Origin: an uncultured Mucilaginibacter sp.
GTDB taxonomy: Bacteria; Bacteroidota; Bacteroidia; Sphingobacteriales; Sphingobacteriaceae
DNA length: 55,515 nt
Direction: 5' to 3'
NCBI GenBank assembly: GCA_903863845.1
Contig: CAIPDP010000066.1
Coordinates: 1 to 55,515, forward strand
The number at the start of each line of letters is the position of its first letter. Within the stretch, counting starts at the first letter, position 1. Position numbers and translations under genes: made by a program. This document shows positions 23,821 through 45,012 of the stretch, piece after piece. The notes below the pieces were generated by a model. That model was not told where the DNA came from and searched no databases. It saw only the letters and a list, made by a program, of their open reading frames with translations.

Positions 23821-24504
23821 ATGAATGTTTTGATCGTTGAAGATGAGCGGGCATTAACTACCGAGATGGAGTTGTTTCTTCAAAGCAACAACTACCTTTG
23901 CGAAACCTGTTATAACGGAGCAACTGCTTCTGAAAAGATAGCAACCAATTTATATGATTTCATCCTCATTGACCTTGGTCTTCCCGACTATGAGGGCCTT
24001 GATCTGTTAAAAGAAGCAAAGAAGCACAACCCCGAAGCAACCTGTATCATTTTAACTGCCCGGGCCGCAGTTGATGATAGAATAAAAGGGCTTGACCTGG
24101 GTGCGGATGATTATCTTTCGAAACCATTTTCGCTGCTTGAATTGCAAAGCCGCATGCAGGCAATAACAAGACGTAAATTCGGACTAAAAAATGCAATTGT
24201 TGCCCTGGGTAATTTCAATATCGATCTGACCAATCGTTCTATTTCTTTTAAGGATATTCCGATCAATGGCATTACTAAAAAAGAATTCGACCTTGTAGCT
24301 TATATGCTTTTGCATAAAAACCGCACTCTTACCCGTTCGCAGTTGAGCGAACACATATGGGGGAGTTTGGTCAATGACGACTATGATTCTAATTATATTG
24401 ATGCTCATATCAAAAACATACGGAAAAAGCTCAACGTCTTCGATACGCCCGATTGGCTCGAGACGGTGCGGGGTTTGGGTTACAGGATAAATATTAACAG
24501 TTAA
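23821..24504 (+). CDS. OmpR-family response regulator
   Basis: This 227-residue regulator has a receiver domain (about 1-118) with acidic EDE near the N-terminus, phospho-acceptor Asp51 in LIDLGLPD, Thr in LTARAAV and Lys in YLSKPFS. A winged-helix DNA-binding domain (about 130-225) ends with the usual VRGLGYRI. It is sandwiched between the barrel gene (3-bp gap) and its kinase (4-bp gap), so it probably controls this cluster. Confidence 0.95.
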   Translation: MNVLIVEDERALTTEMELFLQSNNYLCETCYNGATASEKIATNLYDFILIDLGLPDYEGLDLLKEAKKHNPEATCIILTARAAVDDRIKGLDLGADDYLSKPFSLLELQSRMQAITRRKFGLKNAIVALGNFNIDLTNRSISFKDIPINGITKKEFDLVAYMLLHKNRTLTRSQLSEHIWGSLVNDDYDSNYIDAHIKNIRKKLNVFDTPDWLETVRGLGYRININS

Positions 24505-24508
24505 ATAC

Positions 24509-25846
24509 TTGAAACTCGGCACCAAACTGACACTCTTTAATACCATCTCGAAGATGGTTATAGTAGTTCTGTTTGTTTTATTGCTGCCTGTTTTAATTCG
24601 TGACATCAACCGTAAGTACACGGATAACTGGCTTCATCGCCAAAAAGATAAGGTACTTCAAACAGTTCGCTCCCAGGGTATCGAAAAATACATACAAAAT
24701 GGCGAAGGTTTCGGTAGCTATAATGCCTTGTTAAAAGAGGAATATGTTAGTATGGACGTCGACTCGGTTGACCGGAGTTTGGATACGATTGTAAACGAAC
24801 GCCGGCTTGTTGAAGGAGATACCATTCAATACCGCATTCTTAGTCACAATTTCAGGATCGGGAAAAAAAATTACCTGCTTGAGATCGGAAAGAGTATAGA
24901 TACGATCAACGAGACAACAGCCCCACTTCAAAATATTGCCTTCGAGATACTGCTCGGTATGGTTTTGCTGACCATATTGGCCGATCAGTTTTACTCGACT
25001 TACGTGTTGCGGCCTTTGGGTCGAATCATACGTACCAAACTGATAGGGCAGAAATTCCCCTCGCGTACACCCTACCGTAAAGTGGTTACTTCAACCACAG
25101 ATTTCGCCTATCTCGATATCAGCATCTATAAAATGATGCAGACGATAGAGAATACTTTTCAGAAAGAACGCGAATTTATTTCAAACGCATCTCATGAACT
25201 GATGACACCGATATCGATCATGCAATCGAAGATCGAGAATATGTTTGGCAGAGAAGATATCAACGATGAAGTTAAAGAACGCTTGCTTGAATTTCAGCGA
25301 ATTTTAAACCGGCTAAAAAGTATCACCAAGACCTTACTGCTGATCTCTCAAATAGAGAATGAACAGTTTTTGAAAGAAGATCATGTACAGGTAGGGGATC
25401 TGCTACAGGAAGTTTATGATGAAATTTCGATCCGTTTGCAGGAGAAGAACATTAATTGCGAGATTAATGTGCCTGCTGATTGGGAATTGGAGCAGGTAAA
25501 TAAATTCCTGCTGTTTAACCTGGTATTTAACCTGGTAAATAATGCCATAAAGTATAACAAAGAAAACGGCAGTATTTGGATAGTTGGCGCAAAGGTGGAT
25601 AAACATTATATCCTCTCTATTACCGATACCGGTATAGGTATCGATGCCGAGCAGTTACCACATATTTTTAACCGGTTCAAGAAGTTCAGTAAATCATTGC
25701 AGCAGGATAGTTTTGGGCTGGGCTTACCGATCGTCAGATCCATTGCCGATTTTCATCGTATCCAGATCGAGGTAGAATCGGAAGCCGGTTTGGGCAGTAC
25801 TTTCCGCTTGATCTTCCCGGATGAAGCATTAAAAAAAGAAAAATAA
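24509..25846 (+). CDS. Sensor histidine kinase paired with the upstream regulator
   Basis: This 445-residue kinase has two membrane helices (about 16-33 and 142-162) around an extracytoplasmic sensor of about 110 residues. HisKA follows with His229 in SNASHELMTPIS, then the ATPase domain with N box NLVNNAIKYN, G1 DTGIGID, F box FNRFKKF and G2 FGLGLPIVRS. It begins at a TTG (24509) 4 bp after the regulator stop codon; the next ATG at codon 16 would cut into the first membrane helix. It forms a two-component pair with the preceding gene. Confidence 0.93.
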   Translation: MKLGTKLTLFNTISKMVIVVLFVLLLPVLIRDINRKYTDNWLHRQKDKVLQTVRSQGIEKYIQNGEGFGSYNALLKEEYVSMDVDSVDRSLDTIVNERRLVEGDTIQYRILSHNFRIGKKNYLLEIGKSIDTINETTAPLQNIAFEILLGMVLLTILADQFYSTYVLRPLGRIIRTKLIGQKFPSRTPYRKVVTSTTDFAYLDISIYKMMQTIENTFQKEREFISNASHELMTPISIMQSKIENMFGREDINDEVKERLLEFQRILNRLKSITKTLLLISQIENEQFLKEDHVQVGDLLQEVYDEISIRLQEKNINCEINVPADWELEQVNKFLLFNLVFNLVNNAIKYNKENGSIWIVGAKVDKHYILSITDTGIGIDAEQLPHIFNRFKKFSKSLQQDSFGLGLPIVRSIADFHRIQIEVESEAGLGSTFRLIFPDEALKKEK

Positions 25847-31620: not shown

Positions 31621-32631
31621 TTATCCTATCAATCGTAACAGGGCAAAAACACCTGCAGCTATCAACGCTGAAATAGGGATAGTTATTATCCATGCCCATA
31701 TCAGGTTAACAGTGACACCCCAGCGCACAGCTGATAATCGTTTGGTGAGTCCTACGCCAATAATCGAACCGGTAATGGTATGCGTAGTAGAAACCGGGAT
31801 GCCAAAATATTGCGTAAAAAACAAAGTGATTGCGCCGGCAGTTTCGGCACTCACACCTTCTAAAGGCGTGATCTTGGTGATCCGTGATCCCATGGTTTTT
31901 ACAATTTTCCATCCACCCGAAAGAGTACCCAATGCTATCGCCGAATAACACGCCAATGGGATCCAATTAGGCATTGCAGCACCGGAGCCAATTACTTTGG
32001 CAGCAATGAGTGCTACATAGATGATACCCATTACCTTTTGCGCATCATTACCGCCATGCGCATAACTCAACGCAGCAGATGATAATAATTGCAAACGTTT
32101 AAACCATTTTTCGGCATTTGCCGGACGCGAGTTTTTACTGAGGTGCAATACAATAATGGTAACGATATAAGCGACTACCATACCCATCAATGGAGCGAGT
32201 ACGATATAGGCGATGGTGGTTAATACCAATTTTAAATTTATGGCACTTATGCCATTGGCACCCATATACAAAGCATTGGTAATACCGGCACCGGCAAAAC
32301 CACCGATGAGTGTGTGCGACGAACTGGAAGGAATACCAAACCACCAGGTAGTAAGATTCCAGGTGATAGCTGCTATTAAACCGGCAAGTAATACCTGCAG
32401 GGTTACAAAATGCTCGTTAACTATTTTAGATACTGTTTTAGCAACGTTATGTTCTTTAACAAAAAAGAATACAATGAAATTAAATGTGGCTGCCCATAAA
32501 ACCGCCTGGAAAGGTGTTAGCACCTTAGTTGAAACAATGGTTGCTATTGAATTTGCCGCATCGTGGAAGCCATTGGTGTAATCAAACAATATAGCCAGGC
32601 CAATTACGAGTACGAGTGTGCTTGTTACCAT
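31621..32631 (-). CDS. pit: PiT-family inorganic phosphate transporter
   Basis: This 336-residue inner-membrane permease (about ten helices) imports phosphate or metal phosphate with protons. The duplicated PiT signatures are present: DYTNGFHDAANSIATIVST near the N-terminus, GGFAGAGITNA in the first half, and AHGGNDAQKVMGII plus GIPVSTTHTITGSIIGVG in the second. Length is typical of the short PiT type. It starts 9 bp after the DUF47 gene, the usual DUF47-PiT operon. A Pho-box-like element lies upstream of that operon. Confidence 0.95.
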   Translation of the reverse strand: MVTSTLVLVIGLAILFDYTNGFHDAANSIATIVSTKVLTPFQAVLWAATFNFIVFFFVKEHNVAKTVSKIVNEHFVTLQVLLAGLIAAITWNLTTWWFGIPSSSSHTLIGGFAGAGITNALYMGANGISAINLKLVLTTIAYIVLAPLMGMVVAYIVTIIVLHLSKNSRPANAEKWFKRLQLLSSAALSYAHGGNDAQKVMGIIYVALIAAKVIGSGAAMPNWIPLACYSAIALGTLSGGWKIVKTMGSRITKITPLEGVSAETAGAITLFFTQYFGIPVSTTHTITGSIIGVGLTKRLSAVRWGVTVNLIWAWIITIPISALIAAGVFALLRLIG

Positions 32632-32640
32632 GTAATCCGA

Positions 32641-33291
32641 TCAGGCGTTTTTTACTAAAATTGATTCCATCACGTTTGCAGCATCCTCGCAACGGTCGGT
32701 AGCGGTTTCAAGGGCTGAATATATCTCTTTATATTTGATTAGCCGTATCGCGTCAGTTTCGTACAGGAAGAGGTCGGCTACGGCCCGGTCAAAAACAAAG
32801 TCGGCCTGGTTTTCTACGCTGTTGATACGAATGCAGGAATCGGCAATAGCGCGAACGTTTCGTATGTCTTTCAATTCCCTAACTGCTTTTTCAAGGTCGA
32901 GACTCGCCTGGTAGATCAGATCTGATAATTTACGGATATGTTCGTTCAGATCATCGATCCGGTAAAGCAGCATTCGGTTGGCTGCGCCTTGTATATTATC
33001 GGCTACATCATCAATAGCAGTGGCAAGGGCATGAATATCTTCGCGGTCAAAAGGCGTGATAAAGTTTTTCCCAAGTTCAAGGTATATCTGGTGGGTAATT
33101 TCGTCTCCTTTGTTCTCTAGTTTGTCAATATGTTTGTAAAGCTCATCCCGCGTGCCCGAATTGGCTGAATTTACTGCTTCAACCAGGCTGCCGGCCATAG
33201 CTATCACATTATTAGCGGCTTGTTCGAATAATGGGAAAAATATTTTTTTGTCTTTTGGAACAAAATACTGGAAGATACTATTCAGAGACAT
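32641..33291 (-). CDS. DUF47-family (PhoU-like) regulator of phosphate transport
   Basis: This 216-residue all-helical protein of the DUF47/TIGR00153 family shows GTRDELYKHIDKLENKGDEITHQIYLELGKNFITPFDREDIHALA and the second repeat with DIRNVRAIADSCIRINSVENQAD. It resembles PhoU, binds metal clusters through the acidic helix faces, and typically controls the adjacent Pit transporter. It heads the operon with pit. The promoter (33338-33345) and the 11-bp direct repeats (33356-33372) lie directly upstream, within the end of the kinase gene. Confidence 0.92.
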   Translation of the reverse strand: MSLNSIFQYFVPKDKKIFFPLFEQAANNVIAMAGSLVEAVNSANSGTRDELYKHIDKLENKGDEITHQIYLELGKNFITPFDREDIHALATAIDDVADNIQGAANRMLLYRIDDLNEHIRKLSDLIYQASLDLEKAVRELKDIRNVRAIADSCIRINSVENQADFVFDRAVADLFLYETDAIRLIKYKEIYSALETATDRCEDAANVMESILVKNA

Positions 33292-33337: not shown

Positions 33338-33372
33338 CAAAGTTAATGTTTCCAATGTTAATTTTATGTTAA
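33338..33372 (-). promoter_or_regulatory. Promoter with Pho-box-like direct repeats upstream of DUF47-pit
   Basis: Read on the minus strand: TTAACA (33372-33367), 5 bp, TTAACA (33361-33356), 10 bp, then TAACTTTG (33345-33338), an exact -7 element. The 11-bp period is that of PhoB and PhoP boxes. The first hexamer overlaps the stop codon of the PhoR-like kinase gene. A near-identical arrangement occurs at 36493-36526. Confidence 0.65.
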
Positions 33373-34433
33373 CTATTTAGAACAGGTATTGCTGGAAATG
33401 AAATGCCCTGTTTGGCTTTTTGTAAGGTAAAACCGAATGTCGAACCCAGGCCCTCGGTACTGCGCACATTAATGGTTTGCTGGTGCGCCTCGATAATATG
33501 TTTAACAATAGCCAAACCAAGCCCCGAACCGCCGATTTGCCTTGAGCGACTGGTATCAGTTCTGAAAAAGCGTTCAAAAAGACGGGGAAGGTATTTTTCT
33601 TCAATACCGATGCCATCATCAGTAACTTCAACCAATACCTGGTCATGCAGTTCAAACAGGCTTACCGAGGTGCTGCCCTCTTCTTTGCCATATTTGAACG
33701 AATTATCGATCAGGTTTACCAATACCTGTCTTATTTTTTCCCGGTCGGCATTGACCAAAATAGGATCATCATATTTTTGTTTAAAGACCAACTTGATATG
33801 GTGATCAGCAGCTTTCATTTCTAATGATTCGAAAACCTCTTTGATCAGGTCGTTGATCTTGAACTTTGTATAGTTAACGGGTATTTCGCCTGTTTCCAAT
33901 TTCGAGATCTCGTCCAAATCTTTGATCAGGTAGCTCAGGCGGTCGACATTTTTTGAGGCTTTATCCAGAAACTGGCGAGCCATGTCGGTATCTTCAAAGT
34001 CATCATCTACGATGGCATCGATATAACCCTGTATCGCAAAAAGCGGTGTCTTGAATTCATGCGATATATTTGAAAGGAAATCGCGCCTGAATTTTTCCTG
34101 TTGGCGCAGATCGTCTATTTCGCTTTTCTTTTGTCGCGCCCATTCGGTTACTTCCTGTTGTACATCATTGATCGGGTCGGCACTAACATGTTCACCCAGC
34201 GCATCCCGTAGATCGCGACCCAATTTCAGGTTATGGATCAGTTTGTAAATGATCTTAATTTTGGAATAGATATACTTTTCGAGCAATGCATAAAAAGTAA
34301 CAAAACTGATAACTAAGGTGATGAAGAAAGTGACACCTACATCATACCAGCTATGCTTAAAATAAAAGTTGACCGCCGAAACGGTAATAGCCACAGCAGC
34401 CGCGTTAATGAATACCAGAACCCGTAATTTCAT
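33369..34433 (-). CDS. PhoR-like sensor histidine kinase
   Basis: This 354-residue kinase has two N-terminal membrane helices (about 5-22 and 30-52) with almost no extracytoplasmic loop, like PhoR-type kinases. A short linker with a helical signalling segment leads to His125 in SNISHEFKTPLF. N box NLIDNSFKYG, G1 DDGIGIEE, F box FERFFRTD and G2 GGSGLGLAIVKHI follow. The start at 34433 (MKLRVLV) is preferred over 34460. No response regulator is adjacent. Its position directly upstream of DUF47-pit, sharing DNA with a Pho-box-like site, favours a phosphate-sensing role; that is inferred. Confidence 0.88.
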   Translation of the reverse strand: MKLRVLVFINAAAVAITVSAVNFYFKHSWYDVGVTFFITLVISFVTFYALLEKYIYSKIKIIYKLIHNLKLGRDLRDALGEHVSADPINDVQQEVTEWARQKKSEIDDLRQQEKFRRDFLSNISHEFKTPLFAIQGYIDAIVDDDFEDTDMARQFLDKASKNVDRLSYLIKDLDEISKLETGEIPVNYTKFKINDLIKEVFESLEMKAADHHIKLVFKQKYDDPILVNADREKIRQVLVNLIDNSFKYGKEEGSTSVSLFELHDQVLVEVTDDGIGIEEKYLPRLFERFFRTDTSRSRQIGGSGLGLAIVKHIIEAHQQTINVRSTEGLGSTFGFTLQKAKQGISFPAIPVLNS

Positions 34434-34534
34434 ACCCGTAAAGTTACAATTTACAGGCAACTATGATTCAATTAATGAAGAGAAGAATATTAAATTACAG
34501 TTATTAATTTGTAGATTTTTTCTGACACAAGTCC

Positions 34535-35071
34535 TTATTTCGAGGTGGTTAGGTCGAGGTCAATAATCACATCGTTTGACATGACCAGGCTGTGGCCGCC
34601 AACGCCATAATCGGTTCTTTCTATCTGAAATTCGCCTTTAAATTCAGCAACTGAACCGGTTTCGGTATAGGTAAATGGGATGGTAACGGTATTGGTTTTG
34701 TCTTTGATCGTCAAATTGAAGGTTCCGGTAAATTTATTGCCGGCAATATGTTTAAAGGAGACCGATTTAAGCGTAATGTTAGGATATTTTGTTACATCGA
34801 AATAGCTGTCGCTTTTCAGATGGTCGTTACGTGTGCCATTATCCGTATCGATCGTATTGGTTTCAACTGATGCTAAGATCGAACTGCCGGGCAGGTTAGC
34901 CTCATCAAATTTAATTTCTCCTTTAAAACCGGTCAGAGTGCCATCCACCGTTATACCCAGATTTTTGATGTGAAATAAGATCGAAGATTTGGTAACAGTT
35001 TGTGTTTTAACCTGTGCAAAGCAAATTGCATTGAATAGCACAAAGAGCAATACCAATAATATCTTTTTCAT
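34535..35071 (-). CDS. Exported YceI-family protein
   Basis: This 178-residue periplasmic protein has a signal peptide (about 1-19, ending CFAQ) followed by the YceI lipocalin-like barrel: SSILFHIKNLGITVDGTLTGFKGEIKFDEANLP, NDHLKSDSYFDVTKYPNITLKS and TIKDKTNTVTIPF. The fold binds long isoprenoid or fatty molecules in known members; the ligand here is unknown. It stands between the porin and PhoR-like genes on the same strand with about 100-bp gaps. Confidence 0.93.
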   Translation of the reverse strand: MKKILLVLLFVLFNAICFAQVKTQTVTKSSILFHIKNLGITVDGTLTGFKGEIKFDEANLPGSSILASVETNTIDTDNGTRNDHLKSDSYFDVTKYPNITLKSVSFKHIAGNKFTGTFNLTIKDKTNTVTIPFTYTETGSVAEFKGEFQIERTDYGVGGHSLVMSNDVIIDLDLTTSK

Positions 35072-35172
35072 CTGCTAAATATAATTAAGCAATCTGAGAT
35101 TAAGACGTATAGGTAATCAGATTATTACACAGAATAGGTAAATATATTCTTAGATCAAGTGGCTTTTTTGAA

Positions 35173-36483
35173 TTAAAACTCCACATGCGCCCTCAAACCA
35201 AACACATTTACAGGCCCCCTGTCTGTGTTGTAGGCAGGGTGTATGATAAATTGGTAGTCGGGGCTAAGCCAAACTTTTTTCTGGTAGGCGTTGATCTTGT
35301 AATAGAACTCTGCGATGAATTCGGGCGAGTAGCTTAATTGACCATCGCCTATGATAAAACCATAACCACCAGCGGCAAGATAGGCACGGTGGTCGGCGGA
35401 AATGCCGTTAACAATAAATGCCAGTCCTATTTCGTCATCAGCCCGTTTCCAGGAGTTGCCCTTTAGCACGCCGCCGAAGGAAACTGAGCGATCGATCTCG
35501 GTAAAAAACCAGGTTTCGGTATGACCGTCGTTATAGCTGGCTTTGGCAAAAACACCGAAATCTTTGCTTAAATACTGATCAGTGTTGATCCCGAACCCAT
35601 ATTTATGCCGTCCGTAGTGCTGTGTACTGTCGATGTTTGGTGCAGCGGGATTTTGCTCAACAGCCAGTTTGTAATTGCCGAATTTGCCATTATTGAGGAA
35701 GGTAAGCACCCGGAACGAGCCTTTCTGCCCATCGATCGTATAGCGTTTTTCAAATTCAAGTGTTTGGGTATTGGCCTGCCCAATTTTGCCATCCCATACC
35801 GACTGGTTAGCTTCGGTCGTAACCATGGTCAATGCCAGGCGCAGCGTCCAGGTGGGTTGTCCAAGTTCTCCTGTTAAGCCTAGCACATATCCCCTGGTAT
35901 TTGCAGGATAATCCCATGCGCCGTTATCCATCAAAGCCCAGTTCATGAATTGGGCACGCGGGTCATGACTGAAATTATTGTTATCGAAAAAATCGGCCAT
36001 CCCAAATTTTCCTACAACAAGGGAAAAATAACGTTTGCTCCTTAGCCTTGCTAGTTGATTGATATCGTCTTCAATAGTGTCTTTACCGGCACCCCATTCA
36101 AAAGTCTGTTTTAAGTACAATCGGGCTATATATATCTTATTTTGAACACCTCCCACCCTAAATGTTTCGCCATTGGGAAAGCCGGCGATGCCGAGCGTCT
36201 GACTTAAACCTGCACCACCGGATATCTCCGGATCGAAATAAGCTTCCGCGCCTTTCCAAAGCCTGGTTCCTCCAAATAAAGTGGAAGTAATTGAGGATTG
36301 TGTTTCTTCTTTCGTTGATAAACTATTCTTGCCCGAATACGGCGCATTAAATGACGGCTTGTATTGCGTAATGATCGTTTGCTGAAAATGCAGATTAGTT
36401 TGCTGTTGTTTTACGGTATCCTGGGCAACGGCAATACGGACAATCGCGATAAAAATTGATACAATGGAAATAAATTTCTTCAT
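35173..36483 (-). CDS. OprB-family outer-membrane porin
   Basis: This 436-residue protein starts at 36483 (MKKFISIV). A signal peptide (about 1-20) precedes an OprB-type barrel with FGGTRLWKGAEAYFDPEISGGAGLSQTLG, FNNGNF-like FFDNNNFSHDPRAQFMNWALMDNGAWDYPANTRG and a C-terminus ending in aromatic VEF. In Bacteroidota the family is named after carbohydrate porins, but substrate is rarely known. Its promoter region carries direct repeats nearly identical to those of the phosphate-transport operon, which suggests a phosphate-responsive porin. This function is inference. Confidence 0.88.
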   Translation of the reverse strand: MKKFISIVSIFIAIVRIAVAQDTVKQQQTNLHFQQTIITQYKPSFNAPYSGKNSLSTKEETQSSITSTLFGGTRLWKGAEAYFDPEISGGAGLSQTLGIAGFPNGETFRVGGVQNKIYIARLYLKQTFEWGAGKDTIEDDINQLARLRSKRYFSLVVGKFGMADFFDNNNFSHDPRAQFMNWALMDNGAWDYPANTRGYVLGLTGELGQPTWTLRLALTMVTTEANQSVWDGKIGQANTQTLEFEKRYTIDGQKGSFRVLTFLNNGKFGNYKLAVEQNPAAPNIDSTQHYGRHKYGFGINTDQYLSKDFGVFAKASYNDGHTETWFFTEIDRSVSFGGVLKGNSWKRADDEIGLAFIVNGISADHRAYLAAGGYGFIIGDGQLSYSPEFIAEFYYKINAYQKKVWLSPDYQFIIHPAYNTDRGPVNVFGLRAHVEF

Positions 36484-36492
36484 AAAGCAGGG

Positions 36493-36526
36493 TAAAAGTA
36501 GCATTGCGTTATTAAGTTTATGTTAA
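36493..36526 (-). promoter_or_regulatory. Promoter with Pho-box-like direct repeats upstream of the OprB-type porin
   Basis: Minus strand: TTAACA (36526-36521), 5 bp, TTAATA (36515-36510), 9 bp, then TACTTTTA (36500-36493), one base off the -7 consensus. The 19-base stretch starting AGTTAACATAAA differs at only two positions from that at 33374-33356. A larger inverted repeat, CATTGCG/CGCAATG (36502-36508, 36534-36540), also brackets the site. Confidence 0.6.
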
Positions 36527-36597: not shown

Positions 36598-39312
36598 TTA
36601 CAGCCATAGTTCGAATTTTTTGATGAACCAGGTTTTGACTGCCTGTGTAAGTAAACAATAGGCCAGCAGTATACCCAGCAACCAGGGGAAAAATGCTAAT
36701 GGCAATGCTACCATTTTAAAGGCAGCTGCAAATGGCGAAAAAGGTATAAAAATGCCGATGGCCATGATCGCACTTGTCAACGCAACTACCGGTGCGGTAG
36801 CCCAGCTTTGTATAAATGGTATTTTCCGGGTACGTATCATATGAACGATCAATGTTTGCGATAGTAAACTTTCAACAAACCAACCCGTCTGAAACAATGA
36901 CTGGTGTGCCGGAGAATTTGCTTTGAAAACAAACCACAGCACCGCAAAAGTGGCATAATCAAAAACCGAACTTATCGGTCCGATGAAGATCATGAACCTG
37001 CTGATACCGCCAGCGTCCCATTTGCGTGGTGTAACGATATAATCTTCGTCCATAAAGTCCCAGGGAATGGAAATTTGTGAAACGTCATACAGTAAGTTAT
37101 TGATCAGGATCTGGATCGGCATCATGGGCAGGAATGGGAGCAGCGCACTGGCGCCCAGCATACTGAACATGTTCCCGAAATTACTACTGGCCGTCATCTT
37201 GATGTATTTGATGATGTTACCAAAGGTCCGACGGCCGTAGATGACACCCTTGCGAAGCACCATCAGGTCTTTCTCGAGCAGAATTATATCTGCACTTTCC
37301 TTAGCAATATCTACAGCAGTATCTACCGAAATACCGACATCCGCATCCCGTAATGCTGCTGCATCATTTATTCCATCTCCCATAAATCCTACCGTATGAC
37401 CCTTGGCTTGTAATACCTTTACTACCCTCGATTTTTGCAAGGGACTTAATTTGGCAAGAATACTGATATCGTCTATCCTGGCACTCAGTTCCTCGTCGCT
37501 CATATCTTCTAATTCTTTGCCCAGGAGTATATTGTTGATGGGTATACCTACATCCTTACATATCTTTTTGGTAACAACTTCATTATCACCGGTCAGCACT
37601 TTGATACTGATGCCTAAACGGTGTAAAGCCTCGATAGAAGGTTTAGCCGATGGTTTTGCAGGATCAAGAAAGCCTATAAAGCCAGTCAGTATCATATTGC
37701 TTTCGTCGGCAACCGAATAATTCAGTGGCCGTTCGTCATATTCTTTGACGGCAACCAGCAAAACCCGAAGACCTTCTTCATTCAACCTGGAAGATATCTT
37801 CAAAATGGTTTGCTTCATTTTTTCATCCATCGGGATAATGTCGTCCTTATCGATTTGCAGACTATTGTCTTCACCCGGATCAAAAGCATGACTGCACAGG
37901 TCGAGCATTTCTTCTACGGCACCCTTACAGATCAATAAATGCTTATGATTTTTTTCTTCCAGGATCACTGACATGCGTCTGCGTTGAAAGTCAAAAGGTA
38001 TCTCATCAACCTTTTGGTAAGATTCGCCCTCCTTCAGGCAGGCGTGCAGTTCGACGTGCTCTAAAACAGCCACATCGAGCAGGTTTTTCAGCCCGGTTTG
38101 ATGATAGCTGTTCAGGTAGGCCCATTTCATTACTTCGCTGTCCTCAAGGCCATACACGTTCAAATGCCGCTCCAGCACGATCTTGTCCATAGTAAGCGTA
38201 CCGGTTTTATCGGTGCACAAAATATCCATTGCGCCAATGTTCTGGATCGCGTTCAGGCGTTTTACCACTACCTTACGTTTTGACATGTTAACCGCGCCCT
38301 TGGCCAGGTTGGCGGTAACGATCATAGGCAGCATTTCGGGTGTCAGACCAACTGCTATCGATATGCCAAATAAAAATGCCTCCAGCCAGTTGTGCTTGGT
38401 TAAACCATTGATCAAAAACACCAGCGGTACCATTATCAGCATAAACCTGATGAGGAGCCAGCTAACGCTGTTAACCCCCTTATCGAAACTCGTTTCGGCC
38501 CGTTTACCAACGAGTGATTTTGATAACGAACCAAAATAAGTTTCTCCACCGGTATTGACAACGATCGCCTGGGCAGTACCGCTAACCACGTTGGTACCCA
38601 TAAAGCAAACATTATTTAGATCTAAGGGTGATTTTTTTTTGGCTCCGCGATCAGCTGCGTCTGTTTTTTCTACAGGTAAAGCTTCGCCTGTTAATATGGC
38701 CTGGCTCACAAACAAATCCTTTGAATGAAGAATGCGCACATCAGCAGGGATCATGTCTCCTGCCGAAAGCTGGATCAGATCACCCGGAACCAGTTTTTTG
38801 ATATCGATCTCCTGTTTTTCCTGGCCCTCGCGCAACACGGTCGCCGTCGTTTTTACCATCGACTTTAATTTTTCAGCCGCCTGGTTACTGCGAAACTCCT
38901 GCACAAACCGGAGCATCGCACTCAACATTACCATGATACTGATCACGATAACGGTTGTATAGTCGCGGTCGGCCGGCGCCTGTATCACCACGTCGGTAAT
39001 AGAAGAGATAATTGCCAATACGATCAAAACCCCGATGAACGGGTTTAAAAAGGCCTCGAAAAATTGAATGTACCATTTCGGTGCTTTCTCATGTGCCACT
39101 TCGTTCGGGCCATAAGTGCTTATACGCTCTCTCACCTCATCTGCCGCGATACCCTGATCGCTTGTACCCAGTAATTCCAGAAAATCAACTTTACTGCCGG
39201 CGGAAGCTTCTTTGATCTTTAATGCCGATACACCTTCAAATTCGCTGGCTGAATTGCCGTTCTTTTTGGCTAAATTTTTATAAACTGAACTGATTTTTTC
39301 TCTTTTAAGCAT
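36598..39312 (-). CDS. mgtA: Magnesium-translocating P-type ATPase
   Basis: MgtA/MgtB imports Mg2+ with ATP hydrolysis and is normally induced by Mg2+ starvation. The 904-residue P3B ATPase has an N-terminal cytoplasmic tail, actuator motif LTGEALPVEK, the phosphorylation site DKTGTLT, LTGDNEVVTKKI, MGDGINDAAALRDADVGIS and about ten membrane helices. GLTPEMLPMI lies in the transport helix, as in MgtA. The upstream leader is structured. The gene is monocistronic by spacing. Confidence 0.95.
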   Translation of the reverse strand: MLKREKISSVYKNLAKKNGNSASEFEGVSALKIKEASAGSKVDFLELLGTSDQGIAADEVRERISTYGPNEVAHEKAPKWYIQFFEAFLNPFIGVLIVLAIISSITDVVIQAPADRDYTTVIVISIMVMLSAMLRFVQEFRSNQAAEKLKSMVKTTATVLREGQEKQEIDIKKLVPGDLIQLSAGDMIPADVRILHSKDLFVSQAILTGEALPVEKTDAADRGAKKKSPLDLNNVCFMGTNVVSGTAQAIVVNTGGETYFGSLSKSLVGKRAETSFDKGVNSVSWLLIRFMLIMVPLVFLINGLTKHNWLEAFLFGISIAVGLTPEMLPMIVTANLAKGAVNMSKRKVVVKRLNAIQNIGAMDILCTDKTGTLTMDKIVLERHLNVYGLEDSEVMKWAYLNSYHQTGLKNLLDVAVLEHVELHACLKEGESYQKVDEIPFDFQRRRMSVILEEKNHKHLLICKGAVEEMLDLCSHAFDPGEDNSLQIDKDDIIPMDEKMKQTILKISSRLNEEGLRVLLVAVKEYDERPLNYSVADESNMILTGFIGFLDPAKPSAKPSIEALHRLGISIKVLTGDNEVVTKKICKDVGIPINNILLGKELEDMSDEELSARIDDISILAKLSPLQKSRVVKVLQAKGHTVGFMGDGINDAAALRDADVGISVDTAVDIAKESADIILLEKDLMVLRKGVIYGRRTFGNIIKYIKMTASSNFGNMFSMLGASALLPFLPMMPIQILINNLLYDVSQISIPWDFMDEDYIVTPRKWDAGGISRFMIFIGPISSVFDYATFAVLWFVFKANSPAHQSLFQTGWFVESLLSQTLIVHMIRTRKIPFIQSWATAPVVALTSAIMAIGIFIPFSPFAAAFKMVALPLAFFPWLLGILLAYCLLTQAVKTWFIKKFELWL

Positions 39313-43185: not shown

Positions 43186-45012
43186 ATGAAGAAGAAGAGT
43201 TTAGGATTGATCATCGGCCTTATGGGTTTTGCACTGCTGGGTGTATTGGCGATGCAATTGTATTTTCTTCGCCAATCATACCTTACCCAATCGGATATTT
43301 TTGATCGATCTGTCAATGACGCTTTAAATGCGGTAGTTGCCAAACTTGCAAAGCAGGATGCTAACAGCTTTTTGCATAAGAAAGCAAGGATGATGGAGTT
43401 ACAGCAGCAAAAGAGCAATAAAGCTTATTTGGCCAGTCAGACCGAAAAAATATCAGTTGACGAGCAGGAAAAAAAGCCTAAAAAGTCGATGTCATCGCAC
43501 GAACGCCGGTTGAATGCTTTGCGCGACAGCCTCAGACAGGTAATAGCCACCAATAAACTGGATGAAGAATTCTTCAATATGGCGCAATCCGGCCAATTGA
43601 TGCTGCATGTGCGCTACGAAGAATACACTGATGAATTTGGTATCACCCGTTCCAGAATGATCGATCCGAAGATCATACGGGAAGCCGGAGCTAAAGTGAT
43701 GTACAAAAAGCCGGCCCGGTTGCACAAATATGATACAGCCTATGTTGATTACATCGACCCGCAATTTGGCAAACAGACCATACCAGTGGTGCAGATCGAC
43801 CCCTTATGGCAGCGTGAACAGGATCGGAAAAAAAGCGAACGCCAGTTTCAGGAAGTGAAAAAGATGCTGGAGGTTGATTCGATCCAAAACCTGAATAAAG
43901 GCATTAAATCCAATGTGATAGAGAACCTGGCATTTGAATACCAAAAATCAAACGAGCCGCTGGCTAAACGCCTGAACTGGTTTTGGATCGATTCGCTGTT
44001 GAAATTTGAGTTTCATAATAAAGGCATATCGCTTCCCTTTATTTACCAGGTTAAAACCTTCAACACCGATTCGTTATTGTTTTCGAACGCTAACTATACG
44101 GCCAGCGAAAAAGTAAACGCAAAGGATGCCAATGCCTACCAGGTGGCCATTTTTAGCAAGGAAGTGATCAATGATCCCGGTAAGATCAAGGTATATTTTC
44201 CGCAAAAAAATAAATTGATCCTCACCAAAATGACGGCAACTATGGCTACCTCGGGCGGATTGCTGCTTATTCTGATCGTTAGCTTTGGTTATACCATATT
44301 TTCAATTCTCCGTCAGAAGAAAATATCCGAGATGAAGATGGACTTCATCAATAACATGACGCACGAATTCAAAACGCCGGTTTCTACCATCATGATCGCC
44401 AGCGAAGCACTAAAAGACAAAGAGATCAACAATGACAGGGCGCGTGTTGAACGCCTGGCCAATATTATTTTTGAAGAGAATCAGCGCCTGGGTAGCCATA
44501 TTGAACGTGTGCTAAATATTGCCAGGATAGAAAAAAATGACTTTAAGCTGGACATCAGGGAAATCGATGTTAACGAAATGGTTACTACTGTACTTGATAG
44601 CATGGCACTAAAACTGCAAAAACATCAGGTTACTGCTAACTTGCACCTTGATGCGCAGCATGCGACAATTGAAGCAGACGAATTGCATTTTTCGAATATA
44701 TTGTATAACCTGATTGATAATGCCATCAAATACAGCCCCGAAGCACCTGAAATTACGATCAGTACTTTTAATAAAGATGATCAATTGGTGATAAGGGTTG
44801 CAGATAAGGGAATTGGAATGAACCGCGACCAGCAAGCTAAAATATTTGAGCAGTTTTACCGGATACCAACCGGGAACCTGCACGATGTAAAGGGTTTTGG
44901 GTTAGGCCTCAGCTATGTCAATACAATAGTTAAAAAGCTGAATGGTTCGATCAGCGTGAGATCAGAACGAGAAAAAGGCTCGGAATTTGAATTGAAATTC
45001 CACACCACATAA
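43186..45012 (+). CDS. Sensor histidine kinase, RprX-like
   Basis: This 608-residue kinase has an N-terminal membrane helix (about 7-27), an unusually long, Lys/Glu-rich extracytoplasmic region (about 30-350), a second membrane helix (about 355-378) and a standard core: His393 in NNMTHEFKTPVST, N box NLIDNAIKYS, G1 DKGIGMN, F box FEQFYRIP and G2 FGLGLSYVNTI. It is followed after 10 bp by its response regulator. The pair resembles the RprX/RprY system of Bacteroides in order and regulator sequence; this comparison is from memory. Confidence 0.92.
   Translation: MKKKSLGLIIGLMGFALLGVLAMQLYFLRQSYLTQSDIFDRSVNDALNAVVAKLAKQDANSFLHKKARMMELQQQKSNKAYLASQTEKISVDEQEKKPKKSMSSHERRLNALRDSLRQVIATNKLDEEFFNMAQSGQLMLHVRYEEYTDEFGITRSRMIDPKIIREAGAKVMYKKPARLHKYDTAYVDYIDPQFGKQTIPVVQIDPLWQREQDRKKSERQFQEVKKMLEVDSIQNLNKGIKSNVIENLAFEYQKSNEPLAKRLNWFWIDSLLKFEFHNKGISLPFIYQVKTFNTDSLLFSNANYTASEKVNAKDANAYQVAIFSKEVINDPGKIKVYFPQKNKLILTKMTATMATSGGLLLILIVSFGYTIFSILRQKKISEMKMDFINNMTHEFKTPVSTIMIASEALKDKEINNDRARVERLANIIFEENQRLGSHIERVLNIARIEKNDFKLDIREIDVNEMVTTVLDSMALKLQKHQVTANLHLDAQHATIEADELHFSNILYNLIDNAIKYSPEAPEITISTFNKDDQLVIRVADKGIGMNRDQQAKIFEQFYRIPTGNLHDVKGFGLGLSYVNTIVKKLNGSISVRSEREKGSEFELKFHTT

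Follow-up and report, generated by a model that had tools for sequence, protein, structure and literature searches.

We analyzed a 55,515-bp stretch of DNA (hereafter the window) from an uncultured Mucilaginibacter species, which is contig C66 of its own assembly (G000; 3.98 Mb in 201 contigs), with a focus on a direct repeat that precedes a gene pair encoding a DUF47 protein and a Pit-type phosphate transporter (DUF47-pit). Judged from sequence comparisons, this element is very probably the operator, or Pho box, of the PhoB protein of Bacteroidia, with the neighboring histidine kinase being PhoR, and an orphan response regulator encoded on contig C36 its partner; a similar element upstream of an OprB-family porin may be a recent recruitment. 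What we observe directly is the element, its constraint, the set of genes that it accompanies and the orthology of the kinase. By sequence, the closest named relatives belong to Mucilaginibacter, the best match (98% over DUF47) being to an uncultured bin of this genus. Throughout, labels beginning with G denote genomes (G000 being the window's own), those beginning with L denote fetched loci, and those beginning with C denote contigs of the own genome.

The direct repeat upstream of DUF47-pit

The initial annotation had claimed that two minus-strand promoters of the window carry the same element, and both sequences were found. The element of DUF47-pit spans positions 33355-33372 (minus strand; TTAACAT-AAAA-TTAACAT) and consists of two 7-mers with an 11-bp period; that of the porin spans positions 36509-36526 (minus strand; TTAACAT-AAAC-TTAATAA). 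The respective 19-mers differ at 2 positions, as claimed. The half-sites are 11 bp apart in both elements, and the second hexamer is followed after 10 bp by the -7 element of DUF47-pit, TAACTTTG (33338-33345, minus strand), or after 9 bp by that of the porin, TACTTTTA (36493-36500, minus strand). The repeat is best described as a heptamer, TTAACAT, in a 7-4-7 layout, to which the pit element conforms perfectly and the porin element imperfectly. The genes served by the first promoter encode the DUF47 (PhoU_div) protein of the Pit accessory type (32641-33291, minus strand; Pfam PF01865, 3.6e-25) and the Pit-type inorganic phosphate transporter (PHO4; 31621-32631, minus strand; Pfam PF01384, 1e-89).

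The pattern TTAAYA-N5-TTAAYA has exactly 2 matches in the window (33356-33372 and 36510-36526, both on the minus strand), compared to 0.09 expected, and 2 or more matches occurred in 1 of 100 shuffles of the window. A position weight matrix (PWM) derived from 124 sites of other genomes, with the window and its nearest relative excluded, ranked the pit and porin elements at the top of 110,994 window positions, with scores of 22.4 and 21.2 bits, respectively; the next-best position (13.0 bits) was the opposite strand of the pit site. When 3 mismatches were permitted, the count for the window was ordinary (4 found versus 3.3 expected). The degenerate pattern with at most one mismatch showed no genome-wide excess (233 sites versus 246 for the reversed control), and the bare pattern was accordingly rejected as genome-wide evidence. 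The signal is carried by the consensus, the spacing to the -7 element and conservation.

We examined conservation in a genus set consisting of the best 80 of 558 loci, 78 of which had sequence upstream of DUF47. The exact hexamer pair precedes DUF47 in 76 of these 78 loci, and the other 2 contain a single mismatch; a TTAA pair at 11 bp is present in 77/78. Of the 76 exact loci, 66 have 9 bp between the box and TAnnTTTR, and the other 10 have 10 bp. The genus consensus, TTAACATTAAYTTAACAT, when written as TTAACAT-N4-TTAACAT, has the layout of the Escherichia coli Pho box. The 71 distinct genus sequences used for a column-by-column comparison were picked by TTAA[CT] plus TTAA at 11 bp, a choice that itself fixes those columns; the half-site columns that were free to vary are nevertheless near-invariant, with A at position 6 in 71/71 sequences and C, A and T at positions 5-7 of the second unit in 70, 70 and 69 of 71, respectively. 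Between the box and the -7 element, variation is seen at most positions. Since the gap between the kinase gene and DUF47 is only 49-82 bp in the genus, the promoter fills it.

The recurrence extends across the class. Of 119 genomes sampled from the class, 52 have DUF47, with a total of 56 matches, and we inspected the upstream region of each. Within 150 bp, 32/56 loci contain a TTAA pair at 11 bp, compared to 1.5 expected from shuffles that, as in all spacing and promoter tests, preserve base composition only, and every other spacing from 6 to 20 bp is found in at most 12 loci. TTAAYA pairs at 11 bp occur in 18/56 loci (0.1 expected), and in at most 2 at other spacings. The window's own family contributes 7 of the 56 loci, 6 of which have the TTAA pair at 11 bp; outside this family the pair is present in 26/49. 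Upstream of DUF47 in L167, L170, L172, L187 and L313, TTAAG half-sites are found, still 11 bp apart, and this replacement of TTAACA possibly reflects a change of PhoB specificity.

We also measured specificity by combining the pattern with the -7 element. This search of 61 genus genomes returned 56 sites in 54 genomes, and all 30 of the sites that were fetched precede DUF47. The reversed pattern returned 0 sites; because it also reverses the -7 element, it is too easy a control for such searches, and a 12-bp spacing was used instead. A looser pattern found 33 sites in 25/41 genomes; 30 of these were examined, and 23 lie upstream of DUF47 genes, two of which are paralogues with only 34-38% identity, while the 12-bp control found 8 sites in 6/41 genomes with 0 at DUF47. 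Upstream of control genes from the same loci the exact pair was absent (pit, 0/79; DUF4197, 0/58; YceI, 0/65). The possibility that the kinase gene is itself controlled by the box was likewise rejected, as none of 75 relatives has the exact pair before this gene; a weak excess of TTAA pairs at 11 bp was seen (12/75 versus 1.1 expected).

Phosphate genes with the box and a probable PhoR-PhoB pair

The own genome contains 17 exact degenerate sites, of which 1 lies inside phoB, 4 precede phosphate genes, 1 is at the porin and 11 are elsewhere. The exact box is found at DUF47-pit, at a second DUF47 gene, at phoB and at ppk1, and a version with mismatches is found at pst. The best PhoB match of the genome is the orphan regulator at C36:10058-10726, whose promoter contains TTAACA-N5-TTAATA-N5-TTAACC. 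An exact pair precedes phoB in 20/20 genus genomes (own included); these repeats lie further upstream, and the ~10-bp spacing to the -7 element does not hold there. In the class, 20 phoB loci were chosen by hand from the top PhoB matches rather than at random (16 genomes, one of them used twice, and 3 loci beside DUF47-pit), and 12 of these have a TTAA pair at 11 bp, compared to 0.4 expected.

The site at C96:9100-9116 is exact and starts 63 bp before the gene for polyphosphate kinase (ppk1). It was found by the scan of the own genome and had no part in defining the motif; an exact pair precedes ppk1 in 30/30 relatives fetched after a search of 61 genomes. The pst operon has two or three 11-bp repeats, the last ~9-10 bp before CAnCTTTG, in 6/6 promoters read (own C152 and five relatives); five of these have the TTAA pair at 11 bp and that of G005 is looser, with GTAATC as its first unit. 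In G009, the seventh PhoU-bearing genome of the genus, the contig ends before the pst promoter. The second DUF47 gene is divergent from pst and has TTAATA-N5-TTAATA upstream. The candidate Bacteroidota Pho box of the initial annotation therefore recurs before orthologues of its DUF47 gene as well as before phoB and ppk1, and in looser form before pst.

Further genes were noted in these searches. An exact box lies 103 bp before the gene for a putative lipoprotein with a Phosphoesterase domain, PF04185 (L011:7568-7584; G000:C75:13567), and another precedes the gene for a large outer-membrane protein with a CarboxypepD_reg domain (L009:5224-5240; G000:C14); both are possible further Pho genes. 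Apart from the PF04185 lipoprotein site, no clear phosphate link was apparent at the other 10 exact sites of the own genome. The pst operon is headed by a gene for a protein of ~450-530 amino acids (L232:3982-5334, minus strand; L222:4596-5951; L219:8597-10186) with a signal-peptide-like start and no match in Pfam or NCBIfam, a putative outer-membrane protein going with the regulon and a candidate phosphate porin family. The alkaline phosphatase PhoX was not followed as a target, as only remote matches were found in 5/41 genus genomes (E ~4e-4 to 1e-3); 4 of these 5 are over the cut-off, with listed scores that count neighboring pieces, and none is in G000.

In the direction of transcription on the minus strand, the locus encodes an MgtA/B-type Mg2+ ATPase, the OprB porin, a YceI-family protein, the histidine kinase, DUF47, Pit and DUF4197, with no response regulator among these seven genes. 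The kinase gene (33369-34433, minus strand; ATG at 34433, with the open reading frame listed from TTG 34460) ends against the Pho box. HisKA and HATPase_c are its only domains; no PAS and no Pfam sensor domain was found by the Pfam search. The earlier description of the kinase between the two elements as PhoR-like holds in a strict sense: a profile built from eight phoB-adjacent kinases of other genomes finds it at 418.5 bits over nearly its full length, and the next of 43 matches in the own genome scores 166.7 bits. Because it falls below the curated PhoR cut-offs (TIGR02966, 232.5 of 334.2; NF053855, 167.3 of 500), we name it PhoR-type and do not file it under those models. The kinase gene is directly upstream of DUF47 in 76 of the 77 genus loci with room for it, and phoB adjoins DUF47-pit, divergently or in line, in four other families (L173, L189 and L220, L221, L318). 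The C36 regulator has a receiver domain (PF00072) and a winged-helix C-terminal domain (PF00486), and is the best TIGR02154 match of G000. Given the kinase orthology and the adjacency of phoB and DUF47-pit elsewhere, the window kinase and the C36 regulator are most likely a PhoR-PhoB pair that is split in this genus, pairing an orphan kinase with an orphan regulator.

PhoU was found in 7/25 genus genomes, or 6/20 when completeness was at least 90%. The 14 of these 20 near-complete genomes without a PhoU match therefore probably lack Pst (Pst itself not searched). These results prompt the question of how phosphate sensing works in genomes that lack PhoU but encode the PhoU-like DUF47 beside PhoR. 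One tentative and rather doubtful answer is that, in most Mucilaginibacter, which seem to be without PhoU, PhoR, DUF47 and Pit form a self-contained phosphate sensor, in which DUF47 would replace PhoU on a PhoR kinase that has no recognizable sensor domain, Pit would replace Pst, and PhoB would close the loop on DUF47-pit via the operator.

Relation to known Pho systems and alternative explanations

In E. coli, Pho boxes of activated promoters lie ~10 bp before the -10 element, and phoB is autoregulated, a likeness to the repeat found here upstream of phoB. The Bacillus PhoP box consists of TTAACA-like repeats with an 11-bp period, so that half-site sequence and period are alike although the phylum differs; Bacillus PhoP operators usually have more repeats each. 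The E. coli consensus is CTGTCAT-N4-CTGTCAT (PMC3131613, PMC4415409), and E. coli PhoB is reported to bind in tandem to 11-nucleotide direct repeats and to contact sigma-70 (PMC4415409). The element described here shares the 7-4-7 layout, the 11-bp direct repeats and the A/T-rich spacer, and pst and ppk are typical members of the E. coli Pho regulon as well (PMC4415409). It differs in the half-site (TTAACAT instead of CTGTCAT), in the Bacteroidota -7 element TAnnTTTG, and in that kinase and regulator genes are split.

Within the phylum, pst, the polyphosphate kinase gene ppk (BF2645) and a phosphate permease gene (BF3715) are reported to be PhoB-dependent in Bacteroides fragilis, and an electrophoretic mobility shift assay places PhoB at the pstC promoter (PMC3547664). 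In addition to this overlap with the gene set found here, the B. fragilis PhoRB regulon includes porin O genes; unlike here, it is far larger (585 genes), and the main text gives no binding motif (PMC3547664). DNA affinity purification sequencing of Riemerella anatipestifer PhoP yielded 583 peaks, with TTTAACA as the most conserved bases, and PhoP binds its own promoter (PMC9603813). The TTTAACA core resembles the half-site found here, and binding to its own promoter parallels the repeat upstream of phoB, whereas the terms 'direct repeat' and 'pst' are absent from the main text of that paper (PMC9603813). Pho boxes and Bacteroidota PhoB are already known. We saw no TTAACAT-N4-TTAACAT Pho box for Bacteroidia in the open PMC literature, a scope that leaves subscription papers and supplements aside, and the open text of a paper on the Flavobacterium low-phosphate PHO regulon reports no motif (PMC8115612). 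Our analysis provides the Bacteroidia with a testable consensus, TTAACAT-N4-TTAACAT positioned 9-10 bp before TAnnTTTG, together with a core gene set, and this consensus allows prediction of Pho regulons in soil and plant-associated species.

With respect to mechanism, we infer that PhoB binds the box, that low phosphate is the signal and that activation is the effect. Two head-to-tail TTAACAT half-sites, the second of which ends 9-10 bp before TAnnTTTG, would cover the -33 region. At low phosphate, PhoR would phosphorylate PhoB (the C36 regulator), and dimers of phosphorylated PhoB would bind the repeats and recruit polymerase, such that DUF47-pit, pst, ppk1 and phoB change expression together. 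The porin box would mean that an OprB porin linked to MgtB was drawn into the PhoB circuit recently and in a limited lineage. Activation is most likely, because the spacing from the box to the -7 element resembles the ~10 bp of E. coli, and the PhoB-dependence of pst, ppk and BF3715 in B. fragilis is in line with it.

Several points weigh against the Pho-box reading. A uniform sign of regulation is contradicted by Riemerella pstS, which is reported to rise 8-fold in a phoPR mutant (PMC5399024), by Sinorhizobium meliloti orfA-pit, which is reported to be repressed upon phosphate starvation (PMC3131613), and by a second B. fragilis phosphate transporter described below. Of the 17 exact sites in the own genome, 12 lie neither upstream of an established phosphate gene nor at the porin; this count includes the site inside phoB. 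The 11-bp TTAA pair is lacking in 24/56 class DUF47 loci, and the full hexamer pair is present in just 1 of the 20 chosen class phoB loci. The C36 PhoB is below the curated cut-offs (TIGR02154, 231.8 of 296.2; NF053854, the Bacteroides PhoB model, 219.5 of 270), so its identity rests on ranking and context; the TIGR02154 cut-off was reached in none of the 41 genomes searched. Lastly, the first half-site abuts the kinase stop codon, so that it may be conserved in part for coding reasons. In L086, the one genus locus that has space for the kinase but does not encode it, the box is retained with 1 mismatch, indicating that conservation does not just reflect the stop codon.

We considered whether PhoB instead represses DUF47-pit via the box, switching from the low-affinity Pit to Pst, as reported for orfA-pit of S. 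meliloti. A protein bound at the box could obstruct the -33 region that it covers, and the Na+-dependent phosphate transporter BF4351 of B. fragilis is reported to fall 101-fold at low phosphate in the wild type but not in the phoB mutant (PMC3547664). In contrast, expression of the B. fragilis permease BF3715 at low phosphate is 52-fold down in the phoB mutant and unchanged in the wild type, both relative to the wild type at high phosphate (PMC3547664); the same 9-10 bp spacing to the -7 region was read from the sequences of ppk1 and pst; and the majority of near-complete genus genomes, which lack a PhoU match, probably have no Pst to switch to. We consider repression unlikely, with activation by PhoB favored.

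The repeats might also bind another regulator of the OmpR/PhoB family, for example an ArcA-like protein, with the phosphate genes being just one portion of a broader regulon. Repeats of 11 bp are common in the binding sites of winged-helix regulators, and a search of the own genome with the PhoB model gave 50 matches at E <= 0.001. The Riemerella PhoP motif, found at 579/583 peaks, is said to resemble that of ArcA, and the main text of that paper names neither pst nor polyphosphate (PMC9603813). However, the repeat in phoB's own promoter throughout the genus genomes, and the adjacency of phoB or a PhoR-type kinase to DUF47-pit in several families, argue against a different regulator, as does the gene set: DUF47-pit, pst, ppk1 and phoB belong to the types of genes cited as Pho-regulon members (Pst and Ppk: PMC4415409). 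This explanation is improbable. Less probable by far is that the repeats represent a core promoter feature of Bacteroidota and not an operator: although they overlap the -33 region at a fixed distance before a good -7 element, they are missing from the control genes of the same loci, sites at 11-bp spacing are concentrated at DUF47 (23/30), and two or three units are present at phoB and pst.

The porin and other genes of the window

The OprB-family porin gene (35173-36483, minus strand; Pfam PF04966, 4e-35) is listed as an open reading frame from 36504; its start was taken as ATG 36483, which precedes a signal-peptide-like stretch. Only 9 bases separate the -7 element from this ATG, such that the leader would be very short or absent. 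The initial annotation had proposed a Pho regulon with its own porin. The regulon box stood, while the porin as a general member did not: of 42 genus porin loci (L045, a partial match, not included), 2 have an exact element, 2 have one mismatch and 38 have at least 2 mismatches, and at least 2 mismatches were also found in 16/16 other OprB loci sampled from the class, for which the porin start was the longest ATG frame. The porin was accordingly rejected as a general Pho porin for genus and class, and kept as a lineage-specific one. Porins of the box-bearing relatives are 76-88% identical to that of the window, and those of L038 and L048, which lack the box, are similarly so (79 and 77%).

A neighboring gene points to magnesium. 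The Mg2+-translocating P-type ATPase of the MgtA/B type (36598-39312, minus strand; TIGR01524, 1292 bits) adjoins the porin in the window, in L019, L034 and L038, and in three other families (L275, L281, L286), which suggests a porin for Mg2+ uptake. A TTTAGAC-NN-GTCTAAA-type palindrome (TTTAG-N-CTAAA) lies at most 200 bp upstream of the porin in 15/42 genus loci (L026, L028, L034, L047, L048, L060, L064, L065, L068, L069, L076, L077, L078, L080 and L090), and looks like the operator of a metal regulator; it was not seen upstream of the porin in L019 or the window. In our reading, the porin serves Mg2+ uptake and was placed under the Pho box in this lineage. A physiological link is conceivable, given that metal-phosphate complexes are substrates of Pit.

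A plausible, though less favored, alternative to recruitment is that the porin element has no function, having arisen by chance or decayed, and that a metal regulator controls the porin together with MgtB. The element's absence from most genus loci, the similar L038 and L048 among them, and from the class loci fits this explanation, as do the palindrome, the FUR-family gene that adjoins the porin in L068 and L078, and the leader of few bases. In contrast, the element ranks second in the window by PWM, with a score unequaled in 600 kb of Markov sequence, and it is exact in L019 despite changed flanking bases and occupies the same place in L028, L076 and L078.

The remaining gene of the locus, between kinase and porin, encodes the YceI-family protein (34535-35071, minus strand; assigned by Pfam) and has no box of its own; an apparent YceI match in L066 was an artifact of a partial hit. 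Elsewhere in the window (23821-25846 and 43186-45012) there are a gene for an OmpR-family regulator, followed by a kinase gene, and one more kinase-like frame.

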